From contig NZ_CP121017.1 in the NCBI RefSeq assembly GCF_041468085.1, positions 248,001 to 312,000 of the forward strand: a stretch of 64,000 bases of DNA. Direction: 5' to 3'. Shown here piece by piece: positions 3,936 through 35,867 of the stretch. The notes beneath the pieces were generated by a model. It did no database searches. It was not told the DNA's origin and saw only the letters and a program-made list of their open reading frames with translations. Both the position numbers and the translations under genes were made by a program. This stretch comes from Tistrella mobilis. Lineage in GTDB: Bacteria > Pseudomonadota > Alphaproteobacteria > Tistrellales > Tistrellaceae. Positions within the stretch are counted from its first letter, which is position 1; each line of letters starts with the position of its first letter.

Positions 3936-6900
3936 CACGCCGCCTCCCGCTCGCCGATGCGCTCGACCGGCCAGCGATCGAGCACCCTGGCAAGCACGTC
4001 CGGGCCGCTGGCGTCGCTCGGCACGAACATGCGCAGCTTCCACGAGATGATCTCGTGGAACAGCCCGTAAGCCGTCAGGCGCTCGCGCATCGTGTCGTCG
4101 AAGCCCGACAGTTCGATGCGGTTCGCGCCCATGACGCGCACCCGGCGAAGCTGAAGGCCCTCGGCGAGGTCGAGGATGGTGCGGCCGTCCATCAAGGCGG
4201 CGAAGGCGTCGTCGGGCGCGATCGACGCGGCGCCGGTCGTGGTCGCGGTTGCGGCCCAGGCCGGAGAGACCTGCCGGCCGATGATGCGCTCGCCATCGTC
4301 CGTCTGGAGCCGATAGACGCGCGTCGAGTCGTTGGGCAGGCGCTTCCAGATCGGCAACAGCAAGCCCGTAACCATGTGAAGCCTCGCATCGGTGAACTCC
4401 GGCACCTCGGCGATCTCGGCTTCCCAGGCCGATGCGAAGGCATCCCGGTCGGCTTCGGCCCAGTGCGTCCCGCCCATGAGGCGGATCGGGATGTTGTGCG
4501 CCTCGGTCGGGCGGATCAGGCGGACACGGCGGTCGATCTCGCCGTCGTCGAGCATGACGCTGCTCGCTGGTATCTGCACGGCGGCCCGGCCGGAGCGCTC
4601 GTTGACGAGCAGCTTCGCGCGCGGATCGGCAAGTTCGGCAAGAGCTGCGTCGAGCGTCACCGGCCGGTTGCGCCTGCGTTCGTTGATCGTGAGCAGGCTG
4701 GTTTCCGCGCCGGTGCGGGGGTGGGTGTAGATCGTCTGGCGATCGACGACGACGAAGCTTTCGGCGCGCAGGGTCTCCAGCCCGGCGTCATAGGTGCCGG
4801 ACGCGATGGCACCTTCGATGCGGGCCGTCAGCAGCCCTTCAAAGGCGGTGAACAGCACGCCTTGAAGCTCGATCGTCAGCGCCAGCAGCCTGTTCAGGAA
4901 GGTCGTGATCGGCGGCAGCTCGTCCTTGAGGCCGTTCGAGTCCATCAGCTTCAGCCCGGTGGCCTGCTCGAAGCGGTCGAGCGAGCATCCCTCGACCTTG
5001 CCGCGCACCAGCAGGAAATAAAGCTGACGCAGCGCGTCGCGGGCGTAGGGGCTCTCCAGATTGTCCTCGGGCCGGAACAGGCCCTGGCCGCCGGTCTGGC
5101 GCTGGCCGCGCGTGATCGCGCCCAGCGTGTCGAGGCGGCGTGCGATCGTGCTCAGGAAGCGCTTCTCCGCCTTCACATTCGTCGAGATCGGCCGGAAGAG
5201 CGGCGGTTGTGCCTGATTGGTGCGGTGCGTCCGGCCGAGGCCCTGAATGGCGGTGTCCGCCTTCCAGCCCGCCTCGAGCAGATAGTGGACGCGCAGCCGC
5301 GTGTTCTTCGCCGACTTCTCCGCATGGTAGCTGCGGCCGGTGCCGCCGGCGTCGGAGAAGACGAGCACGCGCTTCTGATCGTCCATGAACGCCTGTGTCT
5401 CGGCGAGATTGGCGGCGCCTGCGCGCGTCTCGACGACGAGACGGTCGACGGTGACGCTGCCGCCGGGCTTGCGCACGATGCGCCGCGAGCGGCCCGTCAC
5501 CTCGGCAACCATGTCCGTCCCGAAATGCTGGACGAGCTGGTCGAGCGCGCCGGGAACCGGCGGCAGGCTGGCGAGCTTGGCGATCAGCGCGTCGCGTCGG
5601 GCGACGGCCTCGCGGCTTTCGACCGGCAGGCCGTCGCGATAGACCGGGCGCGACGACAGATTGCCCTCCGAGTCCGTGAACGGCTCGTAGAGCTGGACCG
5701 GGAAGGAATGGGCGAGATAGTCGAGGACGTATTCGCGCGGCGTGATGTCGACGCGGACGTCGTTCCACTCCTCGGTCGGCAGCTCCGCCAGCCGCCGTTC
5801 CATCAGCGCCTCGCCGGTCGAGACGATCTGGATGACGGCCGAATGGCCCGCCTCCAGATCGGCGGCGATCGAGCGCAGCAGGGTCGGCGCTTTCATGCTG
5901 CATAACAAATGGCCAAAGAAGCGCTGCTTGGCGCTTTCGAAGGCCGAGCGGGCGGCGGATTTCGCCTGCCTGTTCAGCGTGCCGGAGCCGCCTTCGCCGC
6001 CGCCGGTGATGTTGGCGGCCTGCATCGCCGCATCCAGATTGTTATGGATGATGGCGAAGGCGGCGGCATAGGCGTCGTAGATGCGGACCTGCTGGGGCGT
6101 CAGCTCATGCTCGACCAGCTCGTATTCGACGCCGGCGAAGGAGAGCGAGCGGGCGGTGTAGAGGCCGAGGGCGCGCAGGTCGCGGGCAAGCACCTCCATC
6201 GCCGCCACGCCGCCGGCCTCGATCGCCTCGACGAACTCCGCGCGCGTGGCGAAGGGGAAATCCTCGCCGCCCCACAGGCCGAGCCGCTGCGCATAGGCGA
6301 GATTGTGGACGGTGGTCGCGCCGGTGGCGGAGACATAGACGATGCGCGCGTTCGGCAGCGCATGCTGGAGGCGCAGCCCGGCGCGACCCTGCTGCGAGGC
6401 GGCAACGTCACCGCGTTCTCCCTTGCCGCCAGCGGCGTTCTGCATCTGGTGCGCCTCGTCGAAAATGATCACTCCATCGGCGTCGGAGCCAAACCATTCG
6501 ACGATTTGCCGGACGCGCGAAACCCTCTCTCCGCGGTCGTCGGAGCGCAGCGTGGCATAGGTTAGAAATAGGATGCCCTCGTTCAGCGTGATCGGCTTGC
6601 CCTGCGGGAACCGCGACAGCGGCGTGACCAGCAGGCGCTCCATGCCGAGCGCGCCCCAATCGCGCTGCGCGTCCTCGATCAGCTTGTCGGACTTCGATAT
6701 CCAGACCGCCTTGCGCCTTCCTTGCAGCCAGTTGTCGAGGATGATCGCGGCCGACTCGCGTCCCTTGCCGACGCCGGTGCCGTCGCCGATCATGAAGCCC
6801 TGGCGGAGGCGGACGGCGCCGCTGGCGTCCTCGGCCGCGGCGCTCAGCTTGTCGAAGGTGTCGTCGACCGTCCATGCGCCGGCGAGGAAGTCGGAATGCG

Positions 6901-22881: not shown

Positions 22882-22899
22882 ATAGGTTAGAACCTATAT
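22880..22899. promoter_or_regulatory. Perfect palindrome over the higB start (likely antitoxin operator)
   Basis: ATATAGGTT and AACCTATAT form a 9-base perfect inverted repeat around a 2-base centre. It overlaps the toxin start codon and the last codons of the upstream HTH gene. The position suits autorepression by the HigA-type antitoxin, or binding by the HTH protein itself, since a related ACATAG/CTATGT dyad lies at the end of the paralogous HTH gene (34099-34118). Confidence 0.6.
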
Positions 22900-23196
22900 C
22901 CGGTCAATGGGAAGGATGCGGGGCGGTTCTGGCGATACCGTCGTGGTGCGACGGCAGCTCTTAGCCCAAGCGTCCAGATCATCGACTGCATAGCGGACCC
23001 ATTTGCCGAACTTATGATAGGCGGGGCCTCCTCCTCGCGAGCGGTAGCACTCCAACGTATGTGCTTCGAGGGCGAGGTAGCGCGCCGCCGCCTCAGTGTC
23101 GACGAAACGAACTGGTCCCGCCTCGTCGACGAACCTGGCGCGCTTGAGGATGTCCGGCGTTGGCCAGCGGCGATCCGGCTTTGCTCTATCGGACAT
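22894..23196 (-). CDS. Small HTH (AlpA/excisionase-like) DNA-binding protein, copy 1
   Basis: 100 residues. The middle reads VRFVDTEAAARYLALEAHTL, ECYRSRGGGPAYHKFGKWVR, then YAVDDLDAWAKSCRR, the standard winged-helix layout of excisionase/AlpA proteins, with the R-Y-x-x-x-DLxAW end of the wing. Such proteins steer excision or regulate element genes. It shares most of its sequence with the gene at 34113-34412; the two copies bracket the 23-34 kb cargo. Start at MSDRAKPDRRWPTP chosen by match to the paralogue. Confidence 0.85.
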   Translation of the reverse strand: MSDRAKPDRRWPTPDILKRARFVDEAGPVRFVDTEAAARYLALEAHTLECYRSRGGGPAYHKFGKWVRYAVDDLDAWAKSCRRTTTVSPEPPRILPIDRI

Positions 23197-23394
23197 GACC
23201 GGCCTCCATCGCTTCGGTGCGCTTCGAGCCAGGCGGAACCGAGCGGTTTTCGCCGCTGCGGTGACGATAGGGTCTGTAATTGCCGAGACGGGTGGGGGAC
23301 TAGCGCCCCGACCGCAGATAATTCGAACATCCCTGACTCCGCGCGACAGTCCGGGGAGCGGGCGTAAACATGAGTCATGGCGTTCCCACATAGA

Positions 23395-24035: not shown

Positions 24036-25044
24036 AGCCTTCGTCACATTGTCAGCGAACGATCGGCGCGAGGCTCTTGCCGTTGCCGCCGATCGATCCG
24101 GCCGCCCGGCCCATCTGCTTGAAAAGGACGTGTGGGTCGTCTGGACTCTCGCAACGCTGTTCGGGTCAAATTTCGGCGAACATCTCGTGTTCAAGGGCGG
24201 CACATCACTGTCAAAGGCTTATCACGTCATCCGGCGTTTTTCCGAGGACGTGGATCTCACCTACGACATCCGCGCCATCGCCCCCGACCTGGTGGGCGAA
24301 AACGGCGAGGGCCTGCCGAAAAACCGGAGTGAGGAGAAGCGATGGTCGAAGGCAGTCCGCCACCGGCTGCCAGAATGGGTCGACGGAACAGTCCGACCTC
24401 TCCTTGCCCGCGCGATCGACGCGCAGTCGTTGCCTGCAACGTTCAGGGCCGAAGGCGACAAGCTGTTCATCGACTATGAGGCGACCTCTTCGGGATCGGG
24501 CTATGTGGCTCCGAGCGTGATGCTGGAATTCGGCGCCCGCTCGACCGGGGAGCCGGCCAGCCCGCGCGATGTTGTATGCGACGCGGCCGGATTGGTCGAC
24601 GGCGTCGAATTCCCAACGGCTCGTCCCCGGGTCATGCATGCCGAGCGAACCTTCTGGGAGAAAGCGACGGCAATGCATGTTTATTGCCTCGAGGGCCGGT
24701 TGCGGGGCGATCGGTTCGCCCGTCATTGGCACGATGTCGTCCGACTGGATGATGCGGGGGTCGCCAACGCCGCAATATCGGATCGTGAGCTCGCCGACGC
24801 GGTTGCCCGCCACAAAACCATGTTCTTCGGGGCGAAGACGGTTGATGGCGAGGTTATCGACTACGAAGCCGCCGTCGGTGGAAAGCTGCAACTCGTGCCG
24901 GACGGAGATGCGCGCGCTGCGCTGGCAACGGACTATGCGCACATGGTCGAGGATGGGTTGCTGCTTGACGACGCGGAACCCTTCGAGGCGCTGATCATGC
25001 GATGTGCGGACATCGCCGGGCGAGCCAACCGTGCTGCGAAGTGA
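24028..25044 (+). CDS. AbiEii nucleotidyltransferase toxin
   Basis: 338 residues. The nucleotidyltransferase core has HLVFKGGTSLSKAYHVIRRF followed by SEDVDLTYDI, the GS-x-DxD metal site of the DNA polymerase beta fold. Later conserved parts include RTFWEKATAMHVYC and FARHWHDVVRL. AbiEii enzymes stop growth by adding nucleotides to tRNA ends in characterised relatives; phage infection leads to abortive infection. The start is the ATG inside the last codons of the antitoxin gene; longer readings run through that gene. Next gene overlaps at TGATG. Confidence 0.9.
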   Translation: MAEAFVTLSANDRREALAVAADRSGRPAHLLEKDVWVVWTLATLFGSNFGEHLVFKGGTSLSKAYHVIRRFSEDVDLTYDIRAIAPDLVGENGEGLPKNRSEEKRWSKAVRHRLPEWVDGTVRPLLARAIDAQSLPATFRAEGDKLFIDYEATSSGSGYVAPSVMLEFGARSTGEPASPRDVVCDAAGLVDGVEFPTARPRVMHAERTFWEKATAMHVYCLEGRLRGDRFARHWHDVVRLDDAGVANAAISDRELADAVARHKTMFFGAKTVDGEVIDYEAAVGGKLQLVPDGDARAALATDYAHMVEDGLLLDDAEPFEALIMRCADIAGRANRAAK

Positions 25045-25940
25045 TGATGGGAGATAGGGTGTCGAGCTATTTTACGGATCGTGAATATGGGGCACGCCCT
25101 GCAACAATCGATGTCATTGGTGACCGTCTGTGGGCGGGTCTTTTCACCTTGATCGAGACGAGGATTGGCGATGGCTCGTTTGGCTTTCGCTTTCCGGAAC
25201 AGTGCCCCGACGGGAATGGTCCGTGCGGATGTGACGTCCAAGCCTTCAGCCGGGTGCTGGGCGCCGAGGTGCCGTGGATCGAATGGCCGTTCTCTGTGAA
25301 CGAAGTGCCCGATACGCCGGTGATCCTCGATCTGCTCGAGTTTTGCGCCAGCGCCGTCGGCGAGCCGATTCAAGGCAGTTATCATTCCTACTTCGGTCAC
25401 CATCACTTGAGCTGGAACCGGGACGGCGGCCTTGCTCGGTTCGTAGCCGACGTAAACCTCCTGTTTCGCCGGAACGCGATTGCGTATGAACTCACATCGA
25501 GCGGACAGGCCCGCCGGCTTCTCCCACAGCCGGTCGCCGATGTTCTCGGTTGGGCGATGTTTCATACCGGTGATGCGGAGACGGACCGCCTGCTCGAAGC
25601 CGCTCGCCAACGGTTTCTATCGCCCAAACCTGAAGACAGGCAGGACGCGCTGGAGAAACTGTGGGATGCCTTTGAACGGCTGAAGACACTGGAACCCGGC
25701 GCCAACAAGCGCGCTCAGGCCGAAGCGATGCTGGACCGTGTCGCCACGCCGGACTCTGGATTCCGGGAAGCCCTTGGGCGGGAGGCCGCTGAGCTGACCT
25801 CCATAGGGAACAGCTTTCGCATTCGTCATTCCGAGACGACCCAAGAAACCCTGACCTCTCTGGATCAGGTGGATTATCTGTTTACGCGGATGTTTGCATT
25901 TGTGCGTGTGATCCTGAGAGGGACCGGGCGTGGCGGATGA
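25044..25940 (+). CDS. AbiJ-NTD4 domain protein
   Basis: 298 residues. The sequence MSSYFTDR-type opening (VSSYFTDREYGARPATIDVI), GSFGFRFPEQCPDGNG, VILDLLEFCASAV, SYFGHHHLSWNRDGG, RNAIAYEL and LEKLWDAFERLKTLEPG matches the AbiJ N-terminal domain 4 family as I recall it. The end (FRIRHSETTQETLTSLDQVD, YLFTRMFAFVRVILR) is its usual tail. AbiJ proteins are abortive-infection factors; the mechanism is poorly known. Its ATG overlaps the AbiEii stop, and the next gene starts 11 bases before its own stop, so all four genes from abiEi onward may be one transcript. Confidence 0.75.
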   Translation: MMGDRVSSYFTDREYGARPATIDVIGDRLWAGLFTLIETRIGDGSFGFRFPEQCPDGNGPCGCDVQAFSRVLGAEVPWIEWPFSVNEVPDTPVILDLLEFCASAVGEPIQGSYHSYFGHHHLSWNRDGGLARFVADVNLLFRRNAIAYELTSSGQARRLLPQPVADVLGWAMFHTGDAETDRLLEAARQRFLSPKPEDRQDALEKLWDAFERLKTLEPGANKRAQAEAMLDRVATPDSGFREALGREAAELTSIGNSFRIRHSETTQETLTSLDQVDYLFTRMFAFVRVILRGTGRGG

Positions 25941-27252
25941 TCTTTATCGGCTTATCTTCGGAATTCTGCACGGGATGAGCCACGCCCAAATGAGTCAGGA
26001 GCCGGGGCTGGTCGCTGGGCTGGTCGTGCCGGCACCAGAGGGCTTCTCAAAACGGCAGCGTATCGAACTTGCGCTCGAAAACCTCACGCAGGCGGACTTG
26101 GCTCGACTGGCGCTCAAATTCGCTGCTGCTCGCAGCGACATCCCGCTTGATGAGGCGGGCCGCAAGGTGCTTGAGGCTGATGATCCACCGCTGACGCAGA
26201 TCACACGACGAGACGTCGCGCGGATTCTCGGCAACGACCTCGCCGGCGAGCGTAGCACCGTGGAGGTCGTCGAGAGCTACTTCCCGCTTTCCTCACCATT
26301 CGAAGCCCTTTTTGGCAGCAAAGGCCAGAGCCTGCGCGACCGCATCGCCCGGCACATGGATCACAATCCCGGCGATTGGTCGGTCGAACAACTGTTTGGA
26401 GAAATCGGGGCCTTCGATTGTTCCAGGGCCAGGTTCGGCGCCTTGCTCGAACAAGCTGTTCACCCCCTTTCCCGATCAGGTGATGAGCAGACGAAGACAG
26501 TCGAAGCGTTGAACAGGGTGCTCGCGCGGGATGGATATGAGCTTGCGCAGGATGGCGAGGTATCCGGCCATCCGCTTTTCAGTTTCCGCTCTCTGGTGCG
26601 GGGGGTTGGCGGCCGGCCGAAAAACCTGATCTTTGCGTCACGAGGACCGAAGCCGGAAATCGGCTTCGCCGATGCGATCAACAACGACATCGTCATTCTG
26701 TCCGGCGAAGAGAGCTGCCTGATCTACGACCGGCCGATCAGCGCGAGCGGCCTTCTGTGGTCGGAACTCGTTTCCTGGTGGGGCGACGTTACGCCCGGTG
26801 CTGATGCCGCAAGACTCGGAGCGCGTCTCCAGGAATCCCTGGCCTCGGATGCGGAACGCAAGCTTTTCGCGGCCTACTTCAAGGCTTATCGGTCTACCCT
26901 CGGCGAGGCGCTGCCCGCGCTGCTGCCGCAGGTCTACCTTCACTATGATCCTGCCGTCGTAAAAACCCTGCGTCACCGGCTTCCATTGCCGCGTCAACGC
27001 ATGGACTTCCTGCTTCTGTTACCCAGCCGTCAGCGCGTCGTGATTGAGGTCGACGGTAAGCACCATTTCTCGGAAAACGACCTTCCTTCATTGAAGGTCT
27101 ATGCCGATATGGTGTCGGCCGACCGCGAGCTGCGCCTTGCGGGATATGAGGTCTATCGGTTCGGTGCAAATGAACTGGTCGGTGACGGCGCCGAAGCGAA
27201 GATCAAGGATTTCTTCGACAAACTTTTTCGCCTGCATCGCATTCGCCAATGA
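25930..27252 (+). CDS. Predicted nuclease with C-terminal DUF559/Vsr-like domain
   Basis: 440 residues from a GTG overlapping the AbiJ-NTD4 gene. The C-terminal 110 residues carry RMDFLLLLPSRQRVVIEVDG followed by KHHFSE and YADMVSADRELRLAGYEVYR, the D...E-V-D-G-K layout of DUF559/Vsr-like PD-(D/E)xK nucleases. The first 310 residues are not recognised: an N-terminal helical part (LALENLTQADLARLALKFAA) and a beta-rich middle (LIFASRGPKPEIGFADAINN). It is probably the nuclease effector paired with the AbiJ-NTD4 protein. Confidence 0.7.
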   Translation: MADDLYRLIFGILHGMSHAQMSQEPGLVAGLVVPAPEGFSKRQRIELALENLTQADLARLALKFAAARSDIPLDEAGRKVLEADDPPLTQITRRDVARILGNDLAGERSTVEVVESYFPLSSPFEALFGSKGQSLRDRIARHMDHNPGDWSVEQLFGEIGAFDCSRARFGALLEQAVHPLSRSGDEQTKTVEALNRVLARDGYELAQDGEVSGHPLFSFRSLVRGVGGRPKNLIFASRGPKPEIGFADAINNDIVILSGEESCLIYDRPISASGLLWSELVSWWGDVTPGADAARLGARLQESLASDAERKLFAAYFKAYRSTLGEALPALLPQVYLHYDPAVVKTLRHRLPLPRQRMDFLLLLPSRQRVVIEVDGKHHFSENDLPSLKVYADMVSADRELRLAGYEVYRFGANELVGDGAEAKIKDFFDKLFRLHRIRQ

Positions 27253-27285: not shown

Positions 27286-28170
27286 TCAGGGCGCATTCTC
27301 GATCTGGCGGGCAACCCATTGGGTATGTTCACGAGAGAACGCTCGCTCGGCTTCATTTACGAAGGCAGAAAACTTCTCTTCGCTGTCAATCGTGCCAAGC
27401 CGCGTCTGCAAGATGCCGATCTCGTGGGCGGTGAGGCTGTAGGCAGAAGCGAGTTCGTTGAATTTCTTCAGTTGGATCCAACCTATGGCGGAAGACGCTA
27501 TCACCAGCAAAGGTTCGGTTGGCCAAATCATCCATGGTGGATCATGGCGGATTCGGAGGAGAGCTAAAGCGATTGCGGCACCTTGAACGAGGACGCATAT
27601 CAATATCCATAGGCGAAAACGCTGCCTATTCCAGGTAACCTTTGCTACATACCATTCGCGTTGGTCCGTAATCCGGTCAGTATTATATCGTTGAACACGC
27701 TCTGCGAGAGGCAGAGCACGAACCGCATTCATTTCGTTGGTGATCTGATCGCCGGTTACCGGCCGACGGCTTATCGAGTCGCGGACGTGGCTGTTGGCAT
27801 CCAGAATCGCCCTCAGAAACTCCGAGAATTTCTCTGCTACTGTTGAGAGTTTCGGGGCATCTTCGAATGGCTCAGCTCGCATCATGTAACGCCAGGTTGA
27901 TGTCTTGATCGACTCCGCCAGCGCTCGGCACCCGTACCACTCTTTCTCAGGTTTTTGGACTGCCATATATAGTAGGAGACCCGTAGAGGCGGCCAGAACT
28001 AACGCATAAGCGATGTATAGATCAGGAGACGCTCCAAACCAAATAGAGATCGTCGCTGCGACAGTGAGCAGAAGGTACTGCAGCCGAATAAGCCTTAGAT
28101 AGGTGGACTGGGCATCGGCGGCGGAGCCGTCTGCCGAGCGGTACAGGGCGGGAAAACTATCAGGCGTCAT
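27286..28170 (-). CDS. SLATT-domain (DUF4231) membrane protein, likely effector
   Basis: 294 residues. Two membrane helices near the N-terminus (about 31-47 and 52-71) are followed by the SLATT hallmark W-x-x-x-RAxAExIKT-x-xW (EWYGCRALAESIKTSTWRYM, 77-96). A cytoplasmic helical part and a second pair of hydrophobic segments (about 186-206 and 220-235) follow. SLATT proteins are predicted pore-forming effectors of nucleotide-signal immune systems, often beside SLOG or TIR proteins. It is the last gene of an eight-gene operon and follows the MGGG-TIR gene by 17 bases. Likely output: membrane damage on activation. Confidence 0.8.
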   Translation of the reverse strand: MTPDSFPALYRSADGSAADAQSTYLRLIRLQYLLLTVAATISIWFGASPDLYIAYALVLAASTGLLLYMAVQKPEKEWYGCRALAESIKTSTWRYMMRAEPFEDAPKLSTVAEKFSEFLRAILDANSHVRDSISRRPVTGDQITNEMNAVRALPLAERVQRYNTDRITDQREWYVAKVTWNRQRFRLWILICVLVQGAAIALALLRIRHDPPWMIWPTEPLLVIASSAIGWIQLKKFNELASAYSLTAHEIGILQTRLGTIDSEEKFSAFVNEAERAFSREHTQWVARQIENAP

Positions 28171-28187
28171 ATCGACGGATCTCCGGG

Positions 28188-28655
28188 CTATTTCAGTTCA
28201 GCGGCCAATTGATTCCACTGGACGACTTTCACGCCGTGCTTCGCCACCCAAGGCGGATTTTGCCGTGGGGCGCCCCCCTTGGGGTGAACCGCCACCACCT
28301 TTTTCCCAAGAGCGAGGCTGGTCTCCACTTCCCAAGTCACCCAACGGCTTTGCGCAGTATTGTCGGAGATGTAGACGACACAAACAGATGAGCGCTCTAT
28401 CCGCTCGCTGATCTTTTGTTTGATATATTCTGCGCGTTCGCTGTCGTAGGGCTCGCGAACAGAATGATCGTTGAACTCGATATCACTGTTCTCGTTCTTC
28501 GCATGCGCGCGCAGAAGATTGACCTCGTCCATATCTTCGGTTGCAAAACTGATAAAGACATTTCGTTTGCCGCCCTGAAGCGCCGCCTTGGCTTTCTCCT
28601 CCAGGGACCGAATGTCGCCTAACCTGCTCCAGCTCCCGCTACTCCCGCCGCCCAT
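28188..28655 (-). CDS. TIR-domain protein (ThsB-like) with Gly-rich N-terminus
   Basis: 155 residues. The start MGGGSSGSWSRLGD has a GAGGGGG ribosome site 6 bases upstream and begins 1 base after the QueC-like stop; an ATG 9 codons earlier has no such site. Residues about 28-155 are a TIR fold: RNVFISFATEDMDEVNLLR, EYIKQKISERIERSSVCVVY, then TAQSRWVTWEVETSLALGKK with the likely catalytic Glu, and KVVAVHPKGG. ThsB-type TIRs make NAD-derived signals. After Met removal the N-terminus would be Gly-Gly-Gly, a possible substrate for the neighbouring QueC-like enzyme (inference). Confidence 0.85.
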   Translation of the reverse strand: MGGGSSGSWSRLGDIRSLEEKAKAALQGGKRNVFISFATEDMDEVNLLRAHAKNENSDIEFNDHSVREPYDSERAEYIKQKISERIERSSVCVVYISDNTAQSRWVTWEVETSLALGKKVVAVHPKGGAPRQNPPWVAKHGVKVVQWNQLAAELK

Positions 28656-28656
28656 A

Positions 28657-29247
28657 TCAGACCCCCTCAGCCTTGAATTCATTACATGCTATGCACGCTC
28701 CACAAGGTGTTTCACCCCCGAGATGACAGGAATAAGTGCCCTCGATGCCTTTAAGCGTCGCGAGTTCGATGACTTCCTGCTTGTGGAACGACGAGAGCGG
28801 TGCAAGGACCTTTATTTCACGCCCCATGCTCCTTGCGATCATTGCCTCCGCCTCCTGCAAGAACGCCGATGTCTGGTCAGGAAACAGGCTGGTTTCCTCA
28901 TGGAGGAGTCCAATCGATATCGCATCGGCGTCGCGCTGAAATGCGTAGGCTGCTGCTACAAGCAGAAAGAGGAGATTTCGACCAGGAGTAAACGCATCCT
29001 CCAGCACTCGCTGGTTCGGGTCCGTCAACCCGGACTTAATGAGGCGGCCATAGCCCGACAGGTCGGCCACCTCCAAATCTGGTAGCTGCAACTTGGCCAT
29101 CGCTGACCGGCAAGCCGCGTGCTCTCGATCGCGGGATCGCTGCCCATAGTCGATGAAAATCGGATATTGCTGAATCCCTTCCTCTTTTGCGAGGTAGGCG
29201 ACCAGCGTGGAATCAAGCCCACCGGAAACGAGAGTGACAATGCTCAT
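28657..29247 (-). CDS. QueC-like enzyme (Cap9-type, 7-cyano-7-deazaguanine synthase family)
   Basis: 196 residues. The PP-loop ATPase motif SGGLDSTLVAYLA (8-20) and the C-terminal zinc site with four cysteines (YSCHLGGETPCGACIACNEF) match QueC, which converts CDG to preQ0 with ATP and ammonia. QueC-like proteins also occur as Cap9 in type IV CBASS, where they act on a protein or nucleotide partner rather than in tRNA queuosine synthesis. No queD, queE or folE is nearby, so CDG would come from the host pathway. ATG overlaps the OGG-like stop (ATGA). The start was set at the QueC N-terminus (MSIVTLVSGG). Confidence 0.88.
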   Translation of the reverse strand: MSIVTLVSGGLDSTLVAYLAKEEGIQQYPIFIDYGQRSRDREHAACRSAMAKLQLPDLEVADLSGYGRLIKSGLTDPNQRVLEDAFTPGRNLLFLLVAAAYAFQRDADAISIGLLHEETSLFPDQTSAFLQEAEAMIARSMGREIKVLAPLSSFHKQEVIELATLKGIEGTYSCHLGGETPCGACIACNEFKAEGV

Positions 29248-29951
29248 GCTAACGCGCGCTCCGTATCTTGAGAACCCGCAACCCGCATCACTATCCAGAT
29301 CGCCCAATCCATAAGGCCGACTGCAAATCCGAGCCTATTTGCATGTGAAATCAGTTTATCTTCTTGCATGTGATAGTGTGAAAGCTTCGAGATGGCTCGG
29401 CCGGCCCCTGTGTAGAGTCCAATAATCGTCATGTAGTTCAATACGTGGCGATCCAGGACTGCGAGATCGTAGCTGATACCTGCGTTACGCAGGAACATAC
29501 TCGCCTGCTTTGGCCCGATTCCAGCTACGTTCGACACAAGCCACGAGCGAGCGGTTGCCGCATCTCCGAAGGCATGCACGAGTGAGCACAGGTCCCCGCT
29601 TTCCTGCGAGACCGATTCGCGCGCAGAGGCCAATTGCATCGACTTTGATCGAGGAAAGCGATAATTTCGAAGGCTGCCGTTCACCAGTACAGGTTGACGG
29701 AGAACCCCGAGGATTTCATCGGCGAGTTCGGCCCGGGGTGCCGATGTGTTGAGGAGAAGCTGCCGTTTATCCAAAGCATCGGCGGTGGCTACGGCAAGCC
29801 CATACGGTACTTGACTGCTGAGCAGGCAGCATGAGAGTTCCCACCAGAGATTTCGCTCGTCAAGCGCACTCTGAGAGCGCTTAGCCCGCTCTTCAATCTC
29901 CGGGCATATTGCGGCAACGGCGTGCTCCAGCCTGGCAGCATCGTTTCTCAT
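29244..29951 (-). CDS. OGG-like N-glycosylase/DNA lyase (Cap11-type)
   Basis: 235 residues. A helix-hairpin-helix with VAGIGPKQASMFLRNAGISY contains the Lys at the place of OGG1 Lys249, and VLDRHVLNYM gives the catalytic Asp. The N-terminal part (WWELSCCLLSSQVPYGLAVA) is the usual helical start of small bacterial and archaeal OGG2 enzymes. OGG2 removes 8-oxoguanine, but this family also appears as Cap11 in type IV CBASS beside QueC- and TGT-like genes, as here. Overlaps its neighbours at both ends by 4 bases. Whether it acts on DNA or a modified nucleobase is unknown. Confidence 0.85.
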   Translation of the reverse strand: MRNDAARLEHAVAAICPEIEERAKRSQSALDERNLWWELSCCLLSSQVPYGLAVATADALDKRQLLLNTSAPRAELADEILGVLRQPVLVNGSLRNYRFPRSKSMQLASARESVSQESGDLCSLVHAFGDAATARSWLVSNVAGIGPKQASMFLRNAGISYDLAVLDRHVLNYMTIIGLYTGAGRAISKLSHYHMQEDKLISHANRLGFAVGLMDWAIWIVMRVAGSQDTERALA

Positions 29952-31351
29952 CTGAACAAATCCGGCATTTGATCCCTAAGTTGTTTTGAATTGGATTGGC
30001 CCAACAGGCCGACGGCAAATGCTTCTAAGCGATTTGTTGAAGCGGCAGCCTGCAAGTCGTGGGTTAGCTCCCGATAGTAGTCCAAATTATGGAAGGCAAC
30101 TTTACCTGCGTAGTCTATATTATCGTCGGAGAGCGCAGAAACAGTGATGGCCGAAGCCGCCATCTGCGCCTGGTATGCGAAAAAATCGAAATGTTGGTAG
30201 TGATTTAATCTGTGCTGCTGTCGGTCAACGGCAACCCGGCACCACTCTAACCCATCGAAGCTGTCTGCTCCAGCTGCCGTTAGGATCGCTATACTCCATG
30301 GATTTCCCGTACCCAAGAGATGGATCGGCTGATAAAAGGATAAGCGATCAAGCTCGTTCCGGACGCGCCTCATGGTCTGTGCGCGCTGGATCAGCCCTCG
30401 GCCCAACTCGCGCTCCGCCAGCGCGATCATCGGTGGCTGGAGCTGGTCGGCGACATCCCGCACGACCTCGGGGAGAATAGTAAGATCGTACCCTTTCGAC
30501 CTAGTGGCGGGAGCATGAATGATTGGAAGGACGGGGGCTTTGGTGAACTTCCTGTCTCGTTCGACCGCTGCAATGACTTGCCCAACCGCACGCTTTCTGT
30601 CCCTCGACGGATCCATCTCGTCGAAGCAATACACCCAATCGTGTGAAATCCCTTCCAGCGCCAATTCGAAATCTTGGGGCTTCCAGCTGTCGTCGTCGCG
30701 TCGCGTCGCTTCATAATTGCCTGAATCGACGAGGACAAATCCGCCTTGCGCGCGGATACGCTTCAGCTCCTGCTGGATACCTCGAGGGCGGCGGGGTGGA
30801 AACAGGTCGTAGGCGGAGACAAGGACCGTCGATGTACCGAAGAGACGAAGAGCCTTAAGAGCTTCGAGAGGAACGAGTTGTGTCTCGTGTGATGACACGG
30901 AGAGGAACAAGCTCGGAAGGGGGACTCTACCCGCAGCGATGGCTGATGGGCGGGTTGGCGCCATCCTCGGCGGGACGACAGTCGAAATCTTGCGCATCAG
31001 GTGCTGGATACCAGGATGATCGTCTTCTCCGGTCCAGCCCAGAAGATCAACCGCACTATAGCCGTTAAAGCCGTACGGCGCATTTGTCGGAATGATCTTA
31101 GCGGGAATAATCGGAATATTATATTGCTCAGCTAAGCGGAGTTCGTCCTTTACATTACTCTTGTCCTTAGCTGTCGGCGACCAGAGCGGAACGACGCATT
31201 TTGTATTCTGGATTTCACGTTCGATCACGGTCGAGAAGTCGCCGACGATTTTATCGTCCCACCAAACATCCCATCGGGTTGAAAGTGTTTTTACTAATCT
31301 CTCCGCCTGTCCGACATCTTCTCGTGAATAGACTATGTAGACGTCTGACAT
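29948..31351 (-). CDS. TIR domain fused to tRNA-guanine transglycosylase-like domain (Cap10-type)
   Basis: 467 residues. Residues 1-125 are a TIR domain: SDVYIVYSREDVGQAERLVK, WDVWWDDKIV, then VVPLWSPTAKDKSNVKDELR with the expected Glu. Residues about 145-440 resemble TGT: FVLVDSGNYEA with the pocket Asp, YCFDEMDPS, LPIIHAPATRSKGYD, and IHLLGTGNPWSIAILTAAGA then DSFDGLEWCR, placing the nucleophile-like Asp. The usual TGT zinc cysteines are absent. TGT-like Cap10 accompanies QueC and OGG in type IV CBASS; a TIR fusion is not part of that standard layout. GGGGGGAG lies 10 bases before the ATG. Confidence 0.82.
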   Translation of the reverse strand: MSDVYIVYSREDVGQAERLVKTLSTRWDVWWDDKIVGDFSTVIEREIQNTKCVVPLWSPTAKDKSNVKDELRLAEQYNIPIIPAKIIPTNAPYGFNGYSAVDLLGWTGEDDHPGIQHLMRKISTVVPPRMAPTRPSAIAAGRVPLPSLFLSVSSHETQLVPLEALKALRLFGTSTVLVSAYDLFPPRRPRGIQQELKRIRAQGGFVLVDSGNYEATRRDDDSWKPQDFELALEGISHDWVYCFDEMDPSRDRKRAVGQVIAAVERDRKFTKAPVLPIIHAPATRSKGYDLTILPEVVRDVADQLQPPMIALAERELGRGLIQRAQTMRRVRNELDRLSFYQPIHLLGTGNPWSIAILTAAGADSFDGLEWCRVAVDRQQHRLNHYQHFDFFAYQAQMAASAITVSALSDDNIDYAGKVAFHNLDYYRELTHDLQAAASTNRLEAFAVGLLGQSNSKQLRDQMPDLFR

Positions 31352-31395
31352 ACGTAATTACTCCCCCCAGAGTAGTGAATCAGAAGTCTCACAAA

Positions 31396-32574
31396 TTATG
31401 CGTCGCCGCAACTGTCTAGGCTACGGCAAGATGCACGAGGCCAGGCAGCTCGGTACAAAGACGAGGCGAAGTCGGGAACAATCGTAACGCCGAGATCGGA
31501 GAGTGCAGCGATATCGGACCGCTGCTCCTCGTCCAGTATTACAATATTTTGGTGAGATCGCGTTGCGCAGAGTCGTCGAATTTCCGTTGTGCTCAATCCG
31601 TCCGCCACTAGAAGTGAAGGTGCATTTTCGAGGAATGAATCTGGGACCTCATCGAGTTGAGGTGAGAGCACTTCAACACCAAGCTCTTTCAGGCGGAAGC
31701 GCGCCTCCTCAAGCGTATACCGCCTTCCGATTGTAGATGTTGAGCCATGCAGAACAATCCGGTTTGGTGCCTGCCCTGTTATGGGCTCGCGGCTACTGAG
31801 CAAGTCGGTTTGCACCGGAAGGGTCATTGTCTCACAGTAGGCGGACACCGATCGGGAGGCGAGGTCCGCGGCTTCGGCCGCGGAAGTTCCGGCTTCGCCC
31901 CAATGATATGCAAACACGGCACTGAAGACATCCCCTGTTCCGATCTTGAAGACCCGAGATGAATAATATGCGGGAATGGTATTAGGTTCGGCATGACGCT
32001 CAAAGACGGTGACCCCCCGCACCCCTCTTTTTACGACTATCACAGTCACCCGATCGCCATGCGACATGGCTTTCGCGGCGGCAGTCGCCAAGTCGGTGCA
32101 ACCCGCATAGCGGCAGAGCTCTAGCTCATTCATAACCAAAGCAAGCCGTTTCGCTGTCGAGCCATTGGCTCCAAATGGCTCAGGACGGACAGCTGTCTGA
32201 GGATCGTAAATCGCGCGGACAGCGTGCACGATGGCAGATCCTTCCAGGAACCCGAATCTCAGGACCACATCTCCCGAAACATGTATCGGAGGCTGCTGAG
32301 GAAATGACCCAGGTCGCGGCTCGATGTGTGGTTGAGACAGTGGGTGGAAGTACGCAAATGCGATCGCAATATCGGAATGGGTGCGGGATAGCCGCACACC
32401 GAGGTCCGACAGTTCGTCCGCTCCCGGGCTGCTCTCGTCCCGTGCATAGGTGTGAAGAGTGCTCCCTGGCGAAAGAGCACTGACGGCTGCCGCCGCGCGC
32501 CCGCCCGAGCCAAACTGTGCGTTCCACTTCGGCGTTTCGCACAATTCGCGATATAGTCCACCTGCGATTTGCAT
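31396..32574 (-). CDS. PfkB-family kinase with NDT-like C-terminal domain
   Basis: 392 residues. The first 280 residues are a ribokinase/PfkB fold: FGSGGRAAAAVSAL near the start, VIVVKRGVRGVTVFERH, then FKIGTGDVFSAVFAYHW with the catalytic Asp in a GTGD motif. Residues about 285-385 (RIVLHGSTSTIGRRYTLEEA, RFRLKELGVEVLSPQLDE, LLVADGLSTTEIRRL) resemble nucleoside 2-deoxyribosyltransferases, without the usual clear catalytic Glu. Such fusions suggest handling of nucleosides. It lies between an NDT-like gene (15-base gap) and the TIR-TGT gene (44-base gap), in the same operon. Confidence 0.75.
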   Translation of the reverse strand: MQIAGGLYRELCETPKWNAQFGSGGRAAAAVSALSPGSTLHTYARDESSPGADELSDLGVRLSRTHSDIAIAFAYFHPLSQPHIEPRPGSFPQQPPIHVSGDVVLRFGFLEGSAIVHAVRAIYDPQTAVRPEPFGANGSTAKRLALVMNELELCRYAGCTDLATAAAKAMSHGDRVTVIVVKRGVRGVTVFERHAEPNTIPAYYSSRVFKIGTGDVFSAVFAYHWGEAGTSAAEAADLASRSVSAYCETMTLPVQTDLLSSREPITGQAPNRIVLHGSTSTIGRRYTLEEARFRLKELGVEVLSPQLDEVPDSFLENAPSLLVADGLSTTEIRRLCATRSHQNIVILDEEQRSDIAALSDLGVTIVPDFASSLYRAAWPRASCRSLDSCGDA

Positions 32575-32589
32575 GATGCATACGTCCAG

Positions 32590-33417
32590 CTAATGGCCGA
32601 TGATTGTCTGCATGCGGGCTAGTAGCGTCGCGGACAACTCGGCCCGACCTTGGTCGTTGTTGAGGTAGCGCACATATCGGAGATGGCGCAGGTCGAACGG
32701 GATATCGTGATCGCTTTGTGCAATGAGGATGACCTCTCGACCTAAGGTGTGTGCAATCCCGGCTTCGTAAAATACATTCGGATTTCGACCTGAGCAGTCA
32801 CAGATCACGATGCGCGAACGATCAATCAGGGAAACGACATCCTGAATAATTGACGCATTCTCCCAGATGTCGTCCGCCCGTCGGCAACGAAGTCCGACAC
32901 CTTGAGCAGCGTTTCGGATAGCATCAAAAACAGGATTAAACGCCGCATCGAAGGGCATCATGGCGGATGCAAGATGGGGGTCTAAATTCTCATGCTCGGC
33001 CAATGGGAAGACCGTTGGCCGCTGTCGCCGGGGGCGTACCTGGCGAAGTAAAAAGCGGTACAAGTCGACCTCTTTCACGGCCCAATGGTTGCGAGAGAAT
33101 TCGAAATCTCGGGGCATGTCCAGTTCAGCCCGGCTATCATAAAGCAGCGAGTTTGTTAGGGGAGGAACGTCGGGGTCAAAGCTTACCTCGAGTGAGACTT
33201 CGCCCCCTACGATGCGCGCCCGGTTTATCTGCCCGACATACGCGGACTCATCGCCGGTCCCCTCTTCGCAGAAGAGACAAGGCAGAGCCGTAAGTTTGTC
33301 CAGAAGTGGCGTATTGTTCAATCTGAATAGTTCGGCGATATGCGCTTCCGTATATTCGAACATCCGGCCGATCGGCACAGTGACTCTTCCCGATGGCCAA
33401 TCAGCATTAAACATCAA
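32590..33417 (-). CDS. Protein with nucleoside-deoxyribosyltransferase/TIR-like C-terminal domain
   Basis: 275 residues. The C-terminal 125 residues have the pattern ASAMMPFDAAFNPVFDAIRN, LRCRRADDIWENASIIQDVV, IVICDCSGRNPNVFYEAGIA, HTLGREVILIAQSDHDIPFD and LRYVRYL, typical of a large family of NDT-like/TIR-related nucleotide-binding domains common in defence loci. The N-terminal half (VTVPIGRMFEYTEAHIAELF; PCLFCEEGTGDESAYVG; ELDMPRDFEFSRNHW) is of unknown fold and may sense something. Ribosome site is weak; the start could be the second Met or an upstream TTG. Confidence 0.7.
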   Translation of the reverse strand: MMFNADWPSGRVTVPIGRMFEYTEAHIAELFRLNNTPLLDKLTALPCLFCEEGTGDESAYVGQINRARIVGGEVSLEVSFDPDVPPLTNSLLYDSRAELDMPRDFEFSRNHWAVKEVDLYRFLLRQVRPRRQRPTVFPLAEHENLDPHLASAMMPFDAAFNPVFDAIRNAAQGVGLRCRRADDIWENASIIQDVVSLIDRSRIVICDCSGRNPNVFYEAGIAHTLGREVILIAQSDHDIPFDLRHLRYVRYLNNDQGRAELSATLLARMQTIIGH

Positions 33418-33450
33418 AAGATTGAAAATCGACGTCCCCTCCGCGTTAAA

Positions 33451-33945
33451 TTACAGGCCCCAGCTACGATACTGATCCGTGCCGTAGTGCCGTGCTCCCC
33501 CGGCCCTTTCGGTGCGGCTCAAATGTTGGAATTCAGTTGGCCAATGTCTTATAGCATGTTCTATGGCCTTCAGTTTGAATGGTACGTGTACAACACAATG
33601 ATCCCTAATGATCGGCGGGCACAAACTGTCCTGTACGCGGCTTTCATTGAGGTTGACGGCAATAATCGGCAGATCCAAGCTCAACGCGAGTTCTAGCTCC
33701 CACCTTACAAAGCGGAAAAGATTCTTGGTCGAGTTTCCAATCAACACCATAACTGCTGTCGATTGTCGCATTCGCTCCCGCAATTTCGATTTTACGTAAT
33801 CCTCATTCTGAGCACGCGACGTCATGTTGTCGAGATCATGAGAGTCCACGAACTGGAACGGTATTCTGGGGTTGGCATGCCACCCCCGGACATACCGGTA
33901 AGCCCATTGGTCGTTATCGCCATCGAAAACGACGTAAGTCGACAT
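33451..33945 (-). CDS. TIR-like protein (ThsB/DUF1863 family)
   Basis: 164 residues. YVVFDGDNDQWAYRYVRGW opens the fold, FQFVDSHDLDNMTSRAQNED follows, then VKSKLRERMRQSTAVMVLIG and NLFRFVRWELELALSLDLPI with the conserved W-E-x-E, IIAVNLNESRVQDSLCPPII and AIEHAIRHWP. This is the MTH538/DUF1863 TIR-like family that includes Thoeris ThsB sensors. It is the first gene of the eight-gene operon, with GGGGGGAA just before the ATG. In Thoeris several ThsB TIRs can share one effector; here a SLATT protein at the operon end could be that effector. Confidence 0.82.
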   Translation of the reverse strand: MSTYVVFDGDNDQWAYRYVRGWHANPRIPFQFVDSHDLDNMTSRAQNEDYVKSKLRERMRQSTAVMVLIGNSTKNLFRFVRWELELALSLDLPIIAVNLNESRVQDSLCPPIIRDHCVVHVPFKLKAIEHAIRHWPTEFQHLSRTERAGGARHYGTDQYRSWGL

Positions 33946-34112: not shown

Positions 34113-34412
34113 CTATGTTCGATTAAGAGGGAGAATGCGCGGTGCTTCCGGAGAAGCGGTCGTCGAACGTCGGCAGCTTTCCGCCCAGGCATCAAGGTCG
34201 CCGACCGCGTACCGGACGTAGCGTCCGAACTTGTAGAATGCCGGCCCCGTATCGAGAGATCGGTAGCATTCGAGCGTATGGGCATCGAGCGCCAGATATC
34301 TTGCCGCTGCGTCTGTATCGACAAAGCGGACGGGGCCAGCATCTTCCACGTAGACCGCGCGCGCGAGGAGGTCTGCGGACGGCCATTTTGCTCGGTTGTT
34401 AGGTCGCGACAT
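34113..34412 (-). CDS. Small HTH (AlpA/excisionase-like) DNA-binding protein, copy 2
   Basis: 99 residues: MSRPNNRAKWPSADLLARAV, VRFVDTDAAARYLALDAHTL, then YKFGRYVRYAVGDLDAWAES and ILPLNRT. It is a close paralogue of the gene at 22894-23196, matching through the whole length. This copy lies 52 bases upstream of the integrase gene start side's stop, i.e. next to int, as expected of a recombination directionality factor. An ACATAG/CTATGT dyad overlaps its 3' end. It may drive excision; copy 1 may be a duplicate carried along with cargo. Confidence 0.85.
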   Translation of the reverse strand: MSRPNNRAKWPSADLLARAVYVEDAGPVRFVDTDAAARYLALDAHTLECYRSLDTGPAFYKFGRYVRYAVGDLDAWAESCRRSTTASPEAPRILPLNRT

Positions 34413-34463: not shown

Positions 34464-35867
34464 TCATCGCGTTGCCTCCCTGTTTTCATCATGTCGGGCG
34501 CCGGGCGGGGTGGCGCGATTGGCCCCGTTGCGATGGCGGAATGGCCGATAGTTTCCGACCTTGGTGCGCGACGAATACTTGCCGTCTTCCAGGCCGGGAG
34601 GCGGCGACGCGGGCTCGGCAACGTCCGCTGTTTCCAGCGCGGCGCCGACCTCGATCTCGACCTCTGTCGACGGTTCCTCAGCGACCGGGGCTTCGGCGCC
34701 GACGACGATGCGCCTGCGCGCGGCGACCGCATCCGCAGCCATGCGCACCGGGTCTTCCTCGTTGTGAACGTAGCGCATGAACATGGTGACGGTCTTATGC
34801 GCCGTGAGCGCCATACCGACCTTCAATGGCACGCCCGAGTTCGCGATATCGGTTGCGGCGCGATGGCGGATGCCGTGCGTACCGACATGGGGGACGCCCG
34901 CTCGGGCAAGGATGCGCCGCCATCCGTGTTGATAGGTATTGTCCGTCATCGGCTTCGAGGGATCGAAGATCGACGGGCACACATAGGGCGACGTCTCGAA
35001 GCGCGGAGCCTTGCTGAGCAGCCGGTGAGCCTCGTCGCTGAGAGGCTTCGTCATTCCTCCCGTCTTGCTGTCAGGCCAGGTCACGCGCCGGCGTTCGAGG
35101 TCGATCCAGGCCCATTCGAGCGTAAGCACCTCGGACTTGCGCGCCGCCAGCTCGAACTGGAGCCGGATGGCGAGGGTGATGAAGGGATGCTCCAGGCCCT
35201 CCCGGTCCGAGCGGTCGAGATAGGCGAAGAGCTTGCGCATCTCCTCGTCGGTGATGAACCGGGTCGATCCGTTCTCCGCGAATTTCTGGACGTGCCTGCA
35301 CGGATTGGAGCCGTCTGGCCGATATCCCCACAGTTCGGCGAGGTTGAACATCTTCCGAAGGGCAGCGAGCGTTCGATTGGCGTTCACCGGCCGGTCGGCC
35401 ATGCCGGTCATCAATTCCGAGATGTGGGCGCGGGTGACTTCATGAGCCTTGTAGCGGCCCAGGCGCGGAAGGATGTGGTTCTTGATGTTCAGTTCGTTCG
35501 TCGCGACGGTGGAGGGCTTGTTGTGAAGCTTCGAGTGCTCCTCGATGAACTTGGTGCACAGCTCCTTCATGGTCGGTGCTGCGCGCGCGGCTGTCTTCTC
35601 CGCGCACGGGTCGCGTCCATAACGAACCTCCGCGAGCCAGTCCTGTGCCAGGTTGCGGGCCTGATCGACGGTGAGTTCTCCGAATCGACCTAGCGCGGGC
35701 TTCCGGCGGACGCCGGAATTGGTCACGTAGGCGAGCATGAAGATCTTGCCGCCGAACGGTGTGACTTTCAGCATGAAGCCCGGTACGATCGTATCGCGGA
35801 GTTCGTATTCGCGCTCCTTCGGGCGCGCGGCGTCCACAGCCGTCTTGGTGAGTTTGATTTTGGCCAT
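34464..35867 (-). CDS. Tyrosine-type integrase (DUF4102/P4-like)
   Basis: 467 residues. The N-terminal arm-binding domain (MAKIKLTKTAVDAARPKERE, then IVPGFMLKVTPFGGKIF and GRFGELTVDQARNLAQDWLA) is the DUF4102-type domain of P4-like integrases. The catalytic domain has the first Arg in ELAARKSEVLTLEW, H-x-x-R in GTHGIRHRAATDIANSG, and the nucleophile Tyr in TAHKTVTMFMRYVH. About 65 extra C-terminal residues are of low complexity. It lies 195 bases from the tRNA-Leu fragment, so it should integrate the island at the tRNA 3' end. Confidence 0.93.
   Translation of the reverse strand: MAKIKLTKTAVDAARPKEREYELRDTIVPGFMLKVTPFGGKIFMLAYVTNSGVRRKPALGRFGELTVDQARNLAQDWLAEVRYGRDPCAEKTAARAAPTMKELCTKFIEEHSKLHNKPSTVATNELNIKNHILPRLGRYKAHEVTRAHISELMTGMADRPVNANRTLAALRKMFNLAELWGYRPDGSNPCRHVQKFAENGSTRFITDEEMRKLFAYLDRSDREGLEHPFITLAIRLQFELAARKSEVLTLEWAWIDLERRRVTWPDSKTGGMTKPLSDEAHRLLSKAPRFETSPYVCPSIFDPSKPMTDNTYQHGWRRILARAGVPHVGTHGIRHRAATDIANSGVPLKVGMALTAHKTVTMFMRYVHNEEDPVRMAADAVAARRRIVVGAEAPVAEEPSTEVEIEVGAALETADVAEPASPPPGLEDGKYSSRTKVGNYRPFRHRNGANRATPPGARHDENREATR

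Follow-up and report, generated by a model that had tools for sequence, protein, structure and literature searches.

A TIR protein with a glycine-rich N-terminus is encoded directly after a QueC-like enzyme in Tistrella mobilis, which raises the question of whether the enzyme attaches a nucleobase to that N-terminus. The preliminary description of this locus had pointed out that QueC-like Cap9 enzymes attach a deazaguanine to the N-terminal glycine of their partner, and this is in print (PMC11996544 and PMC13279940; both available to us in part). Comparison of sequences leads us to think it probable that the QueC-like enzyme tags Gly2 of the TIR protein with a base, as part of a module distantly related to the deazaguanylation machinery of type IV CBASS, in which the TIR replaces the CD-NTase as acceptor. 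Each step after the tag on the TIR is held with less confidence.

The window, meaning the whole stretch of 64,000 nucleotides that was analysed, holds eight closely spaced genes on the minus strand at 27286-33945. In the order of transcription these are as follows.

33451..33945, minus strand: second ThsB-like TIR, starting MSTYVVFDGD (without MGG), an internal control (PF08937 1.5e-17; PADLOC ThsB 4.3e-49)
32590..33414, minus strand: U275, with a TIR-effector-like C-terminus (PADLOC Effector TIR 1.4e-9)
31396..32574, minus strand: PfkB-like protein (PF00294 5.9e-7)
29948..31351, minus strand: fusion of a TIR domain and a Cap10-like TGT domain, the proposed tag reader (TIR_2 4.5e-14; PADLOC TGT 2.5e-24)
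29244..29951, minus strand: OGG-like HhH-GPD protein (PF22175 4.8e-25)
28657..29247, minus strand: QueC-like (Cap9-like) ligase, 196 aa (PF06508 1.2e-39; PADLOC QueC 2.1e-27)
28653..28668, minus strand: GAGGGGG Shine-Dalgarno-like stretch, 6-base spacer and TIR ATG, overlapping the 3' end of the QueC-like gene (read from the sequence)
28188..28655, minus strand: TIR protein (ThsB_TIR), 155 aa, with the tail MGGGSSGSWSRLGD, the proposed Gly2 base acceptor (PF08937 2.8e-24)
27286..28170, minus strand: SLATT membrane protein (SLATT_3 + SLATT_1), the proposed effector (PF18184 9.2e-40; PF18181 9.1e-34)

The TGT/OGG and OGG/QueC pairs overlap by 4 bases each, and a single base separates the QueC stop from the TIR start. 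U275 begins at an ATG at 33414, with a TTG at 33417 as an alternative, and a Pfam search assigned it to no family. We predict that the core of TIR-TGT, OGG-like, QueC-like and TIR proteins forms a deazaguanylation-type immune module. The surroundings of the operon are those of a likely mobile defence island: a similar small ORF pair (AAARYLAL.AHTLECYRS...) flanks it at 22894-23391 and 34113-34412, and an ORF labelled integrase-like by eye lies at 34464-35867. Adjoining the system on the plus strand are tandem AbiJ_NTD4-like (under Pfam's cut-off) and AbiJ_NTD3 genes (25002-27252).

The TIR start and its conservation

The TIR start had been placed at 28655, one base past the QueC-like stop, and this proved exact: the stop TGA occupies 28659-28657 and the ATG 28655-28653. 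The ribosome-binding stretch described six bases upstream was also found, the DNA reading GAGGGGG-TCTGAT-ATG, and the protein begins MGGGSSGSW. A longer in-frame start is possible at 28682, giving MNSRLRGSDMGGG, and is disfavoured because there are homologues in which the MGG codon is itself the most upstream start possible in frame (23 of 65 loci); an annotation artefact was set aside for the same reason. The tail before the fold, described as flexible, was predicted to be disordered in our structure model (pLDDT < 50 for residues 1-13), for which the best fold matches were a B. cereus TIR and ThsB. Glu109 of this small TIR, within WVxWE, was kept in 65/65 aligned proteins and E70 in the TIR domain of the TIR-TGT fusion in 21/21; we take both to be the glutamate usual for NAD-cleaving TIRs.

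M1, G2 and G3 were invariant across 42 of 42 aligned TIRs, while residue 4 drifted between G, S, D, N and H. The Gly-Gly-Gly N-terminus of the preliminary description thus holds for the window TIR and not as a constant feature, the constant element being MGG rather than MGGG. Loci were collected by scanning genome contigs with a QueC alignment alone, the partner playing no part in selection, which yielded 59 loci; the scan patterns required DAFTPGRN or CI[AS]C[NL]EFK, which confines the sample to this QueC clade. A TIR gene adjoined QueC in 58 of the 59, and all 57 with a readable start began MGG. With eight further TIR loci, the QueC-to-TIR junction gave MGG in 65/65 under a nearest-start rule, which takes the start codon nearest the stop of the upstream gene with no preference for MG starts; these 65 loci encode 62 different proteins that are related, not independent, and all lie in one QueC clade. 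The start codons were 64 ATG and one GTG, and the proteins showed 41 different first-12 stretches, with all four glycine codons used at both positions. The proposal that the partner is the TIR protein beside QueC is supported by comparative evidence: the 65 MGG starts, the adjoining Cap10-like TGT, and the MGGSGGG starts of CD-NTases in two type IV CBASS loci. No homologue among the 65 kept the QueC neighbour while lacking the N-terminal glycine.

Neighbours were read at 68 loci, namely the 59 together with the window, L001-L004, L029, L031, L100 and the CBASS locus L030. The TIR gene was next to QueC in 66 of them, the exceptions being L030, where a CD-NTase stands there, and L098, where the QueC reading breaks off and there is no TIR. 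Both lie outside the 65, as does L042, whose TIR frame is interrupted and whose reading begins MGGGSSGSW. L099 was counted, its TIR being cut by the contig end after its start, and L005 and L008 were left out of the 68, their TIRs being identical to that of L001.

Applied to the other junctions of the operon, the nearest-start rule gave MGG in 0/64 cases for OGG to QueC, 0/62 for TGT to OGG and 0/39 for PfkB to TGT (MG in 2/39). No MGG was observed among up to five starts for each of 21 ORFs encoding the second ThsB-like TIRs of system loci, many of which start MGLPRTFVGF, directly at the fold. A check proposed in the preliminary description, whether a Met-Gly start goes with the presence of QueC, pointed the same way: in scans of 398 and 115 genomes, MGG was found in 0/21 TIR ORFs that do not follow QueC. 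This second set of 21 includes two second TIRs of loci holding the system (in L162 and L192) and leaves out repeats of one ORF (the second ORF of L173, L174 and L193) and two weak matches (E 6e-3); in L186 the stretch examined contained neither an ATG nor a GTG start, and L188 and L190 gave no match. Five full-length TIR relatives, the window's included, were found in the 398-genome scan, all beside QueC and all with MGG, and the five of 398 genomes matched by PADLOC's TGT model were these same five.

The 59 scanned loci were mostly from Alpha-, Beta- and Gammaproteobacteria. Magnetococcia, Desulfuromonadia, Chlorobiota, Bdellovibrionota and Acidobacteriota records contributed single loci, and several of these records are metagenome bins. 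In a plasmid collection, tblastn matched QueC in 13 Rhizobiaceae records (73-75% identity), and these 13 also gave the matches to the TIR (72-78%) and to TIR-TGT (49.5-50.3%). We classified 67 loci into 41 of subtype A, 20 of subtype B and 6 incomplete or unclear. Subtype A has TIR-TGT, OGG, QueC and TIR in 41/41 and PfkB in 40/41, and U275 is the best label of an ORF in 10/41. Subtype B has SLATT, QueC, TIR and a TGT on which no TIR was found, with OGG found in 19 of the 20. An ORF labelled MAP3K_TRAF_bd/TPR-S lies near 32/41 subtype A loci (in L001 at 3562-4905), and its protein is possibly a sensor arm. In the Rhizobium BT03 copy (L005 1281-3387), an IS3-family element splits the SLATT gene and the core genes are annotated as whole. 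A search of phage records with TIR-TGT gave no match. One viral contig (L040 1-3327) begins at a TIR of this family reading MGGGGGGGRG, downstream of which lies a 681-aa ORF with SGGVDS and CxxC motifs that is QueC-like by eye.

QueC is also found with a PfkB-NDT neighbour, the context of QueC cluster 4, which has been linked to purine salvage (PMC13329287, partial text). At such loci a protein of about 125 aa with the start MGS[ST]GSG (MGSTGSG or MGSSGSG) is encoded upstream of PfkB-NDT, QueC and an HhH-like gene, the last so labelled by eye, with a weak BLASTP match and none in Pfam. It was observed in Neotabrizicola, Cupriavidus and Proteus (L006 4281-4664, L007 4275-4652, L196 3962-4378) and had matches in four plasmid-collection records, three of which have no PLSDB table feature there; it is possibly another Gly-start conjugation partner. 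The window PfkB was rejected as a full PfkB-NDT fusion like that of L006, since only the PfkB stretch aligns well (4e-6), and the window OGG-like protein was rejected as close kin of L006's HhH-like protein, the match being weak (6e-4).

The QueC-like enzyme, the TGT domain and the donor base

The window QueC carries SGGLDS, YGQ(x)5E, FTPGRN, FPDQ and C(x)7CxxCxxC. Among 67 TIR-linked QueCs, which have Cap9-type motif spacing, FTPGRN, YxQ(x)5E and F[PS]DQ were each present in 67/67, and C(x)7CxxCxxC in 66/67, being absent from the broken L098. One study describes the Cap9 motifs as Y/FxQ(x)5E plus CE(x)6CxxCxxCxD and reports that QueC stays partially active when its Tyr is changed to Phe (PMC13329287, partial text). 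The base contacts of Cap9 are Tyr115 and Asp117, where QatC has Thr/Thr (PMC13279940, partial text); since F[PS]DQ is universal in the TIR-linked set, the aromatic-x-Asp contact of Cap9 is kept there, unlike QatC's Thr pair. The Cys of Cap9's YxDC is Gln in 67/67.

The best PDB match to the window QueC was the biosynthetic QueC 2pg3 (3.4e-16), with Cap9 9nto_B at 2.8e-13; PADLOC's CBASS QueC model gave 94.5 bits, where two genuine Cap9s reached 221 and 231; and the QatC model gave E 0.02. The score against the TIGR00364 equivalog was 122 bits, under its 150.3 cut-off. In a tree that compared them with two Cap9s, three cluster-4-type and five canonical QueCs, the TIR-linked QueCs formed a clade of their own (94/93) on long branches.

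For the fused TGT domain, the best PDB sequence match was 9ntn (4.5e-7), a Cap10-CdnD structure with an NDG-tagged N-terminus. It was also the best fold match, narrowly, to the predicted TIR-TGT structure (pLDDT 89), at 4.4e-13 vs 6.4e-13 for canonical TGTs. A profile alignment (E 3.6e-8) matched D209, D244 and D366, kept in 63/64, 64/64 and 64/64 proteins, to the aspartates of the canonical DSGGFQ, FDE and FDCV motifs; we take these to be the base-binding and nucleophile residues of TGT, with D366 aligned to the nucleophile. The TIR-system TGTs shared DSG[NG]YE and FDGLxW with both Cap10-type proteins compared, while the canonical TGTs had FDCVxPTR in place of FDGLxW (5/5) and DSGGFQ in 3/5. 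PADLOC's TGT model scored the window domain at 84 bits, compared to 370 and 365 for two CBASS TGTs, and the domain did not reach the cut-off of PF01702 or that of TIGR00449. In the OGG-like protein, the HhH Lys and Asp, presumably its catalytic residues, were kept in 63/63 aligned sequences.

Eight host genomes were examined for a source of the base. QueD (PF01242) was found in four, including the window's own, and the tRNA TGT in all eight. In the window's genome, QueC, QueD and a radical-SAM gene lie side by side at C4:3712504-3714082, away from the system, and with this gene cluster the host can plausibly make CDG. Three of the seven TIR-system hosts searched (G119, G443 and G736) had neither QueD nor a second full-length QueC, so the standard CDG route is not visible in them; their donor has to come from salvage or from a phage, or else be another compound. 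The gap in QueD is not peculiar to the TIR version, since the type IV CBASS host G123, which has a second QueC, also gave no QueD match.

Proposed mechanism and competing explanations

Met before Gly is normally removed by methionine aminopeptidase, which would expose Gly2 of the flexible TIR tail. By analogy with Cap9, the QueC-like enzyme would use ATP to activate a 7-deazaguanine carboxylate, most likely CDG, and would couple the activated base to the amine of Gly2 in place of ammonia. The attachment might arm or restrain the TIR, as the preliminary description proposed. The retained base pocket of the Cap10-like TGT domain may then grip the tagged end of the TIR, as 9ntn suggests. Because the TGT domain of subtype A carries its own TIR, reading of the tag by the fusion would bring two TIR domains together. 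On infection, the assembled TIRs might make an NAD-derived signal or hydrolyse NAD, with SLATT as the putative membrane effector. A bolder version, which we regard as a long shot, makes the base a tether coupling the two TIRs: QueC would write, TIR-TGT would read, and a composite TIR active site would form, while CDG-less hosts would take the donor from phages with their own 7-deazaguanine DNA-modification genes, so that conjugation would act as the infection sensor.

The PDB search, which puts the window QueC nearer to biosynthetic QueC than to Cap9, would also suit an enzyme that makes a free deazaguanine (preQ0/ADG-like). The TIRs would base-exchange it on NAD to give a deazaguanine-ADP-ribose messenger, TGT and OGG would handle the N-glycosidic bond, and the MGG tail would have no role beyond docking on QueC. 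TGT and OGG folds do act on N-glycosidic bonds, base exchange by TIRs is known, and D366, which aligns with the nucleophile of TGT, is conserved. We nevertheless consider this explanation unlikely, as it accounts neither for a constant Met-Gly-Gly whose following residues drift nor for the match to the NDG-binding Cap10. The chemistry could instead differ in its donor, with QueC modifying the TIR N-terminus with an acyl group or base other than CDG, as has been suspected for QatC (PMC13279940, partial text). The lack of both QueD and canonical QueC in three of seven TIR hosts fits such a donor, as does Gln for the Cys of YxDC in 67/67; what makes it quite unlikely is that the aromatic-x-Asp contact, the RN motif and the TGT pocket aspartates are all kept, and that outside deazaguanines could be salvaged.

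It could also be argued that the two glycines are incidental: they would belong to a flexible linker rich in Gly and Ser, passed on with the operon as a unit in which QueC does something unrelated. Gly-rich tails are common, and a single QueC clade holds all the loci, so the cases are not independent. Yet M-G-G stays constant through 41 first-12 stretches with all four Gly codons at both positions, the second TIRs of the same loci lack MGG in the starts listed, and in type IV CBASS the same start appears, next to a QueC, on an unrelated protein, the CD-NTase, all of which makes mere inheritance very improbable. Conjugation of a base to Gly2 of the TIR is the reading carried forward here.

In the partial texts available, base-to-protein conjugation is shown for one acceptor, the CD-NTase of type IV CBASS, and QatB is proposed as another. 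If a TIR is an acceptor too, base-to-protein tagging would be a reusable module and not the peculiarity of one defence system, with QueC as writer and TGT as reader forming a portable control unit for different signal-making enzymes, and CBASS-type control would be linked to TIR signalling. The loci span nearly 60 species, and the fusion of TGT to a TIR suggests what the tag is for.

Comparison with known systems

A plain queuosine role was rejected for the QueC-like gene, the window's own genome having a separate QueC/QueD cluster elsewhere. Folds and pocket motifs are shared with canonical QueC and TGT, but the window proteins score under the equivalog and family cut-offs. Thoeris shares the ThsB-like TIRs with their usual glutamate (PF08937 2.8e-24 and 1.5e-17); here, however, the TIR has an MGG tail and sits with QueC, TGT and OGG, and no ThsA (SIR2/SLOG or macro-domain) was found among the ten window proteins scanned. 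The same ten included no KAP ATPase (QatA) or TatD nuclease (QatD). The likeness to qatABCD is that a QueC-family protein has a small neighbour whose disordered tail begins with Gly, and QatB G2 is essential (PMC13279940, partial text). QatC differs from the 196-aa window QueC in its N- and C-terminal extensions (same source) and in its Thr pair in place of Tyr/Asp. Searches by title, abstract start and term counts, with supplements and most subscription journals outside their reach, found no description of a TIR-QueC-TGT-OGG operon, and 'TIR' does not occur in the main texts of PMC13279940 and PMC13329287.

Two type IV CBASS loci were available for direct comparison, and the Cap9/Cap10 comparison draws on these (L030 and L195) together with PDB entries. 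L030 encodes QueC, TGT, a CD-NTase that matches PADLOC's Cyclase model at 5.5e-110, a small membrane protein, and an OGG that PADLOC matches at 7.3e-79. Translated from its ATG, which a GTG precedes by one codon, the CD-NTase begins MGGSGGGSYIPD. L195, from Pseudanabaena, has QueC, TGT, a CD-NTase reading MGGSGGGFFSNS (PADLOC Cyclase 1.1e-125) and a SLATT_4-like protein (1.8e-5, under Pfam's cut-off). Viral contigs yielded no further type IV CBASS loci. Both CD-NTases start MGGSGGG beside QueC and TGT genes, and MGGS is the CD-NTase motif needed for NDG (PMC13279940, partial text). A straightforward type IV CBASS was rejected for the window, as no CD-NTase was found among its ten scanned proteins, and a CD-NTase query was among the two best ORF labels only in L030 of the 68 loci. 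Also set aside were an OGG kinship, since PADLOC's CBASS OGG model misses the window's protein and Pfam's Ogg-HhH misses that of L030, and a shared SLATT, since the L030 membrane protein has no Pfam SLATT match.

What type IV CBASS and the window system have in common is a QueC-family enzyme and a Cap10-like TGT beside an MGG-start partner, along with an HhH/OGG-type gene. They differ in that the acceptor candidate here is a ThsB-like TIR and no CD-NTase, in the fusion of the subtype A TGT to a second TIR domain, in the added PfkB-like gene, and in the separate clade of the QueCs. Judged by PADLOC scores, the kinship of QueC (94.5 vs 221-231 bits) and TGT (84 vs 365-370 bits) to their CBASS counterparts is distant. 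As in NDG systems, a Met-Gly partner start (65/65) and a disordered tail (pLDDT < 50) lie beside QueC, and by sequence and gene order the TIR sits where type IV CBASS has its CD-NTase, with a start, a putative writer and a putative reader of the same kind.
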